From: a virus
DNA length: 64,000 bases
IMG/VR virus record: IMGVR_UViG_3300023171_000008
Span: 38,558-102,557 of that record
Direction: 5' to 3' (one strand)
Shown: one piece after another, positions 17,520 to 29,587 of the stretch
Layout of the letters: each line of letters starts with the position of its first letter
Numbering within the stretch: the stretch's first letter is position 1
Made by a program: the position numbers and the translations under genes
Notes under the pieces: model-generated
The model's input: the letters and a program-made list of their open reading frames with translations, nothing else
Told to the model about the DNA's origin: nothing
Database searches by the model: none

Positions 17520-17551
17520 CAAATATAATACAATTCATAAAAAAATCCAAG
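17520..17551 (-). promoter_or_regulatory. Bacteroidota-type promoter for scaffold-MCP
   Basis: On the minus strand: CTTG (plus 17548-17551), exactly 20 bases, then TATATTTG (plus 17520-17527). This matches the -33 TTTG / -7 TAnnTTTG pattern with one mismatch in the -33 box. It lies 29 bases upstream of the scaffold start and overlaps the portal terminator, so the head-protein unit can be transcribed independently. Confidence 0.75.
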
Positions 17552-28474: not shown

Positions 28475-29005
28475 TTATTTATTAATTTTTAAACGATTAA
28501 AATCTTTTTTGTATAATACTACATCATTACCTTCTAAATAAGACTTAACTTCTTTCTTATTTAAACCTATTTTAGCAAATTTAGCAGCCCAGTTATTATT
28601 CTCTTCACGTAGTTGTTCAATCAGTATTCTATCATCTACACTAGCTTTCCTAAATGAATTAGTAACTACTCTATCTCCCATATGAAATAATACCCAATCT
28701 AAATCTTCAGTTAATATAATTTCTTTATTACAATCTGTAAATAAGAATGTACCTGCTGAAGCAATAAATCCTGTCATATAAATTCTTATATCTGGATGAT
28801 TATTAATAAAATGTATTAGTACAGCCATTGCATGTGCTTCTCCTCCAGGTGTAGTAAAGAATAAATCTATACATTCATAACCACTTAATATATCAATTAA
28901 ACCTTGTACTGATTCTACATCTATACTGTCTTCAAAATGATATACATATCTTAATGGTTCTATATCACTCATTATCTCATGTAATTCTTCTTTACTTAAT
29001 TCCAT
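28475..29005 (-). CDS. ClpP-like serine protease
   Basis: 176 aa with the crotonase-like ClpP fold. TPGGEAHAM at residues 52-60 forms the oxyanion-hole loop, Ser83 in F-I-A-S-A-G is the nucleophile, and His108 in VLFHMGD is the base. The third triad residue is not certain. Phage ClpP-like enzymes often act as prohead proteases, but this gene is far from the capsid genes, so a regulatory or anti-host role is possible. It begins 14 bases inside a 58-aa gene. Confidence 0.85.
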   Translation of the reverse strand: MELSKEELHEIMSDIEPLRYVYHFEDSIDVESVQGLIDILSGYECIDLFFTTPGGEAHAMAVLIHFINNHPDIRIYMTGFIASAGTFLFTDCNKEIILTEDLDWVLFHMGDRVVTNSFRKASVDDRILIEQLREENNNWAAKFAKIGLNKKEVKSYLEGNDVVLYKKDFNRLKINK

Positions 29006-29193: not shown

Positions 29194-29225
29194 CAAAGGT
29201 AATCAATTATTTTGATATATCCTAA
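29194..29225 (-). promoter_or_regulatory. Promoter of the leftward (late) arm
   Basis: Minus strand: TTAG (plus 29222-29225), 20 bases, TACCTTTG (plus 29194-29201), matching TAnnTTTG exactly and the -33 box at three of four bases. It lies just beyond the terminator of the adjacent RNA gene and before the first leftward gene, so it is the best candidate for initiating the whole minus-strand operon. Confidence 0.7.
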
Positions 29226-29261: not shown

Positions 29262-29298
29262 ACAAAAAAAGTCCTAATACAATTAAGTAAAAGGACTT
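29262..29298 (-). terminator. Terminator of the minus-strand RNA gene
   Basis: 7-bp stem AAGTCCT/AGGACTT (29269-29275 with 29292-29298), loop of 16, followed on the minus strand by seven T (plus A run). It separates the RNA gene from the late-arm promoter. Confidence 0.85.
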
Positions 29299-29548
29299 CT
29301 ATTAATATAAATTAAACACACTTATGGCTAACTTTATTACTTACTACTATATAATAAGTTATTTAACTATTAAACACAAAGGGGTTTCCCAAACTTTGGT
29401 AGCTTAGGAAATCCTTGGCTTATATAGTTTGTTGAAGTCGTCATACCCCTCGAAACCCGTTATCCATATTATATATCCACTTTTGCCCTGGATTGTATTA
29501 AATACTATAATATGGCAACAACCACCTATATAAGTTGCATAAATTATT
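29262..29548 (-). ncRNA. Stand-alone structured RNA gene (about 285 nt)
   Basis: Starts near 29548, just downstream of a good promoter (29556-29587), and ends in an intrinsic terminator. Inside, a perfect 10-bp helix (29464-29473 with 29506-29515) encloses two hairpins (ATCCA/TGGAT at 29475/29489 and GTATT/AATAC at 29495), a three-way junction. A second domain is closed by GGGTTTC/GAAACCC (29382-29388 with 29452-29458). It has no long ORF: only a 24-codon frame at 29370-29444. It does not match tRNA, tmRNA or 6S patterns that I know. It may regulate host or late transcription. Confidence 0.7.
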
Positions 29549-29555
29549 TAAAGTA

Positions 29556-29587
29556 CAAAGATACAACATTTATTTTAAATATGCAAG
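29556..29587 (-). promoter_or_regulatory. Promoter of the structured RNA gene
   Basis: Minus strand: CTTG (plus 29584-29587), exactly 20 bases, TATCTTTG (plus 29556-29563), a full match to TAnnTTTG. The predicted start is about 8 bases downstream, near 29548. Confidence 0.75.

Follow-up and report, generated by a model that had tools for sequence, protein, structure and literature searches.

A stand-alone structured noncoding RNA gene, built around an H-type pseudoknot core, opens the structural (late) gene arm in the viral record IMGVR_UViG_3300023171_000008 (102,557 bases). Our computational analysis centred on a 64-kb stretch of this record, hereafter the window, whose proteins include a terminase, a portal, a major head protein, GroEL, tail ring proteins and a crAss001-type auxiliary capsid protein. 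This protein set, together with a terminase ~40% identical to those of crAss001 and DAC15, identifies the phage as crAss-like. The Crassvirales rank with the most abundant known phages, and the literature searched yielded no description of a noncoding RNA family in this group. The family reported here offers a clear covariation pattern and a ready search model, and permits a concrete test of what stand-alone structured phage RNAs do.

Promoter, transcript and terminator of the RNA gene

The two gene arms diverge at 29.2-29.8 kb of the window, with the structural arm on the minus strand and the replication arm on the plus strand. The structural arm extends over roughly 55 kb and contains internal terminators at positions 17545, 14848 and 12126. 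In crAss-like phages this arm is expressed late, and host RNA polymerase is considered to transcribe it (PMC8375218, PMC10136315). The following features were mapped at the divergence (window coordinates):

29556-29586 (-): Bacteroidetes sigma-A-type promoter, recognised from the sequence and the published consensus (PMC9723704), upstream of nearly all homologues; TTG at 29584-29586, 20-nt spacer, TATCTTTG as -7 box at 29556-29563
29262-29551 (-): noncoding RNA, ~290 nt, ends placed from the -7 box and the terminator; fold z -3.67
29514-29538 (-): segment A, GCAAC...GTTGC, 5' strand of S1 (CUUAUAUAG, GUU); covariation
29464-29515 (-): H2, covarying stem CCATATTA/TAATATGG, with two inner hairpins in the window allele
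29453-29458 (-): conserved GGGUUU of loop L1, adjoining stem S2
29445-29452 (-): 5' strand of S2 (P3), CGAGGGGU; covariation
29419-29442 (-): segment B, GACGACUUC-AAC-AAA-CUAUAUAAG, 3' strand of S1, holding the invariant core
29388-29408 (-): H4 hairpin CCTAAGCT/AGTTTGGG within loop L3
29377-29385 (-): 3' strand of S2 (P3), ACCCCUUUG, preceded by invariant GGAA; covariation
29264-29297 (-): intrinsic terminator, AGTCCT...AGGACT plus T tract, from the sequence and a long-loop scan
29194-29224 (-): second promoter, TAGG-N19-TACCTTTG, downstream of the RNA terminator, predicted to restart transcription into the structural arm

The -7 box fits the flavobacterial sigma-A consensus TAnnTTTG (positions -12 to -5; PMC9723704), and this placement puts the predicted +1 at ~29551. 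Only a few promoters of this type occur in the 102.6-kb genome, and the same extended promoter stands ahead of nearly all homologues; the exceptions are L095, where it lies further upstream, L098, where none was recognised, and L005, where a tRNA intervenes between promoter and RNA. A host sigma-A-type promoter, as read from the sequence, would be in line with transcription of the structural arm by the host polymerase. The intervening gene in L005 is a tRNA-Thr (L005:2188-2261), and its position implies that tRNA and RNA would share a primary transcript. Arrays of tRNA genes also occur near the head of the structural arm in crAss001 and DAC15.

The terminator has the form AGTCCT-N16-AGGACTTTTTTT, with a stem of 8 and a long loop. 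It was overlooked by a simple scanner and recovered when longer loops were allowed, a scan that yielded only four terminators on the minus strand of the window. Most homologues carry a different terminator stem in place of that of the window, and two (L043 and L103) have none. The minus-strand transcript folds with a minimum free energy of -74.5, against -56.6 ± 4.9 for shuffled sequences (z -3.67; 0 of 200 shuffles as good), and the plus strand gives a weaker signal (z -1.96).

The first-pass annotation had placed a promoter, a folded RNA and a terminator on the minus strand and had read them as an independent RNA gene. All three elements were recovered at the positions it gave, and the conserved promoter, the covarying structure and the presence of a terminator in most homologues support the gene's independence. 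A ClpP-like protease gene lies a short distance downstream of the unit (window 28475-29005, minus strand); ClpP-like homologues also occur downstream of the RNA in L008, L091, L105 and L108, and none was seen beside most other copies.

The region contains no good open reading frame, as had been proposed. The frame that starts at the core ATG ranges from 7 to >90 codons among homologues and shows no conservation beyond ~10 residues, which indicates that the product is RNA. A short coding gene, in which a small peptide would begin with MTTS...SQ, encoded by ATG-ACR-ACT-TCN, can draw on the presence of MTTS as the first four codons in all members and on some changes at third positions. The erratic frame length, a frame shift in L103 and the variable positions of codon 5, which are accounted for by pairing with segment A, make this reading barely credible. 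A 63-codon open frame in L103 was also rejected, having no credible start.

Pseudoknot fold and covariation

Alignment of the homologues revealed two covarying helices, S1 and S2. Because they cross, the core forms an H-type pseudoknot, with H2 contained in loop 1 (L1) and H4 in loop 3 (L3). Such a core is invisible to nested folding and was therefore absent from the fold of the first-pass annotation, which had described a 10-bp helix and a three-way junction. These elements correspond to H2 of the window allele: they are present in the minimum-free-energy structure, and comparison inside the allele group to which the window belongs supports them (GTAT/ATAC versus GTATATT/AATATAC; ATCC/GGAT versus ATCT/AGAT), but they do not belong to the conserved core.

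Covariation among relatives had been named beforehand as the check on the helices, and they withstood it. Across the S1 and S2 alignment, 98.1% of cells are paired and ten base pairs have changed on both sides, although the sequences are related and the cell counts are thus not independent events. The covariation score was 0.594, compared with 0.245 ± 0.020 in shuffles and at most 0.108 in all slid-column controls, which preserve relatedness and still fall far below the observed value.

S1 consists of two blocks, CUUAUAUAG/CUAUAUAAG and GUU/AAC in the window and UAGUU/GGCUA and UACA/UGUA in L016, and 7 of its 9 counted pairs have changed on both sides. In S2 (P3), pairs change from C-G to A-U to G-C, from G-C to A-U and from A-U to G-C, with almost no broken pairs. 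H2 varies in length and register; counted in one register, its five tested positions all pair in most of 20 sequences and four pair in the rest. Within segment A, GCAAC and GUUGC may instead make a local 5-bp hairpin, which is not proven because these sequences are almost invariant. Alternatively, GUUG pairs with CRAC and extends S1, an arrangement possible in 20 of 20 sequences.

Approximately 30 residues are invariant, most of them outside the variable helices. The U-rich loop adjoining S2 and the A-rich GGAAA suggest, purely by analogy, that base triples may form. Outside the core, the RNAs of L026 and L114 carry an extra, nearly identical block of ~50 nt (AAAGTAGTCTGGACAGTCTAAAAAAGACAGGGCTAAATTGCAATTACTTTT) before the terminator, and those of L038, L040, L043 and L098 contain a conserved ACAACAACAACATTAG or similar unstructured repeat in the 3' tail that other alleles lack.

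Distribution of the RNA family

Searching the whole window against Rfam 15 (4227 families) at gathering thresholds returned a single match, a tRNA, and the RNAs of the window and L038 gave only chance-level matches at E up to 10, so a known RNA family was rejected. DNA searches of phage records with the RNA locus gave no match, nor did the neighbouring ssb-like protein as query. The family was reached through a terminase search, which supplied 80 loci with a related terminase, many of them matched by intergenic blastn. A pattern of the invariant core then matched 31 viral contigs; after removal of three chance matches (L104, L109 and L110), these represent 24 distinct RNAs, including that of the window. 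A covariance model of the family (R1) identified 27 virus records at E < 1e-16, with one copy in each; the match in the window spans 29377-29538 and scores 120.5 bits.

The model found no copy in crAss001, DAC15, phi38:1, cr85_1, cr111_1, cr126_1, cr128_1 or bajarodcaudo virus 1. Among 84,980 bacterial and archaeal genomes, the strict exact pattern had 0 matches and the relaxed pattern matched 10 stretches, none credible; a host origin was rejected, as none of these stretches beats E 0.5 with the model.

In all records with a placeable terminase, the RNA lies on the strand of that gene, ~4.8-8.6 kb upstream of it and near the arm divergence. G029 keeps the same position even though its terminase is only 33% identical. 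The terminase tree confines the RNA to two clades. In a large sister clade, the members for which 10 kb upstream was covered do not have it, and it is likewise absent from sister crAss-like phages for which the divergence region was available (L034, L035, L045, L051, L067 and L068).

Exchange of RNA alleles and endonuclease cassettes

Relationships among the RNAs depart from those among the terminases. L010 and L011 share 98% terminase identity and 49% RNA identity; the reverse holds for L016 and L027 (68% versus 96%) and for L005 and L084 (69% versus 86%). Overall, RNA and terminase distances are barely correlated (Mantel r 0.22, p 0.05). Over 18.4 kb downstream, L016 and L019 share 99% identity, yet they differ in the RNA body: at the slot of the L016 RNA, between the same promoter and terminator, L019 holds an unrelated noncoding stretch of ~300 nt and an endonuclease gene.

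This discordance and the L016/L019 replacement mark the slot as a recombination hotspot and the RNA as an allele that can be exchanged there. By these computations, RNA alleles and the whole gene have been exchanged horizontally between crAss-like phages. As the contigs are metagenomic, single cases could be assembly chimaeras; with several independent cases, chimaeras are unlikely to explain them all. The resulting population biology is unusual: the fold is conserved, near-identical phages have traded divergent alleles, and endonuclease cassettes can take the place of the RNA.

Within the RNA-bearing clades, the RNA is missing from three members with a covered slot (L004, L019 and L013), and all three hold a GIY-YIG-type gene there. 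L004 and L019 share a second cassette, in which a conserved noncoding stretch of ~300 nt (~83% identical) precedes a GIY-YIG-superfamily (MUG113/T5orf172) gene:

L019:2975-3833; L004:2421-3281; also L134, L135, L137: second cassette (RNA2 plus endonuclease), sharing the promoter-terminator slot

The noncoding stretch of this cassette has no Rfam match and could represent a new endonuclease-associated RNA. In L013, ~350 nt of noncoding sequence (L013:1260-1640) precedes the GIY-YIG gene at the slot and shows no evident resemblance to either RNA.

Comparison with known RNAs

Several known systems resemble the RNA in part. Like the HK022 put RNA, it is a structured phage RNA early in a long same-strand transcription unit; put, which works without a protein, is however a cis element lacking its own terminator, whereas the window RNA carries a promoter of its own, in most members also a terminator, and differs from put in its pseudoknot and its sequence. 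The pseudo-ToxI of PhiTE (PMC3475682) is a phage-encoded pseudoknot RNA with a counter-defence role, the kind of function that we favour for the window RNA. The PhiTE mimics are tandem short repeats, in contrast to one unrelated RNA of ~290 nt, and a ToxI-type antitoxin was rejected because the RNA is single copy and the alignments show no repeated unit. GOLLD and ROOL (PMC12286853) are likewise stand-alone, highly structured and phage-associated RNAs, often near tRNAs (compare the tRNA-Thr of L005), but they are far larger families already in Rfam, and the window RNA matches neither. The phi29 pRNA shares the stand-alone phage RNA format, loop pairing and a positional link to packaging genes; unlike it, the window RNA has no Rfam pRNA match and is absent from sister phages with a homologous terminase.

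The TROVE protein encoded by crAss001 (PMC8375218) made a Y-like RNA a serious candidate. TROVE/Ro60 (PF05731) is absent from all RNA-bearing records searched and present in crAss001 and cr111_1, both of which lack the RNA; with no Rfam Y RNA match, this identity was rejected. An omegaRNA or HEARO was set aside, no IscB/TnpB-type nuclease being among the Pfam matches listed for the 97 phage proteins scanned, as was a tmRNA or tRNA, for which ARAGORN made no prediction at the RNA locus. ARAGORN did predict tmRNAs in two crAss-like loci (L106:4160-4540 and L114:6447-6816, both minus strand), and their long or odd tag peptides make these uncertain.

The segment GACGACUUC resembles the complement of the 16S decoding site. 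Pairing with that site was rejected because roughly one sequence in two would lose a pair at an A/G column, and because the segment is accounted for by pairing with segment A instead. A riboswitch or attenuator was considered by eye in the homologue alignment: the core is fixed, the terminator stems are allele-specific, and no conserved alternative or antiterminator partner was seen.

Possible function of the RNA

We favour, at a probability of roughly 0.45, a trans-acting, protein-binding RNA with an accessory function directed at the host or at competitors. Host RNA polymerase would make the RNA from the sigma-A promoter, and the transcript would fold, stop at its own terminator and act in trans. 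By presenting proteins with an unvarying tertiary surface, it would serve as a decoy for, or modulate, a factor of the host or of a competitor. Protein binding is suggested by the conserved unpaired residues, as a fixed tertiary surface for a protein is the most likely meaning of invariant positions lying mostly outside the variable helices. The RNA resembles neither an antisense RNA nor a gene for a peptide, and the swapping of alleles and the replaceability of the gene fit an accessory, conflict-type function. A partner gene was sought by presence and absence across 11 genomes and rejected, since no protein of the window phage, the set compared, tracks the RNA; this favours a host or other external partner. 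More specifically, and rather improbably, the locus may set specificity through allele-specific pseudoknot pairing that serves recognition of self, of competitor phages or of host factors, with alleles swapped by homing endonucleases at one hotspot.

As an essential role, control of the early-late switch, raised in the first-pass annotation, finds no support: the RNA is missing from sister phages, L004, L019 and L013 carry endonuclease cassettes, and with close and distant relatives both doing without it, an indispensable switch is unlikely. The annotation's other proposal, that the RNA sequesters a host factor, may yet hold. The strongest rival is a cis-acting leader of the structural arm, a possible though doubtful reading in which the nascent pseudoknot binds host RNA polymerase in the manner of put, an RNA-only antiterminator (PMC9378689), and carries it through its own and later terminators. 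Its rank follows from the position of the RNA, which in every checkable case heads the late arm on the same strand, and from L043 and L103, whose lack of a terminator before the next gene would suit a cis leader and counts against a trans-acting RNA; the long arm with its internal terminators would also give such a leader work to do. Most members, however, have a second promoter directly after the terminator, giving the arm its own start, and L004, L019 and the sister clade keep the same arm without the RNA. Nor would strong allele divergence be expected of an RNA that contacts a single conserved RNA polymerase.

The endonuclease genes raise the unlikely alternative that the RNA is a passenger, or a part or landing site, of a mobile cassette at a homing-endonuclease hotspot where endonucleases drive gene conversion. 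The GIY-YIG-type genes in the slots of all three covered RNA-minus members, the recurrence of the second cassette in other phages at the same promoter-terminator slot and the endonuclease VII, HNH or GIY-YIG genes flanking several RNA-plus copies agree with it. Many RNA-plus loci, that of the window among them, lack a neighbouring endonuclease, however, and the structure is under clear selection and retained in phages as distant as G029, so that a hotspot accounts for mobility but not for conservation. Segments A and B, complementary within each allele and different between alleles, could also pair between molecules into allele-specific rings or cages for packaging or as a scaffold (compare phi29 pRNA and GOLLD). 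GOLLD, ROOL and OLE form RNA-only oligomers (PMC12286853), and the RNA gene heads the terminase-carrying arm; an intramolecular pseudoknot is nevertheless the simpler account of the same pairs, no packaging RNA in Rfam matches, and sister phages have a homologous terminase without such an RNA, which leaves self-assembly very unlikely.

A metallophosphatase-like gene is confined to some RNA-bearing phages: its product (L002:8490-8930, plus strand) is shared at 51-75% identity by several of them, including the very distant G029, whereas G001, G007 and two RNA-bearing phages lack it.
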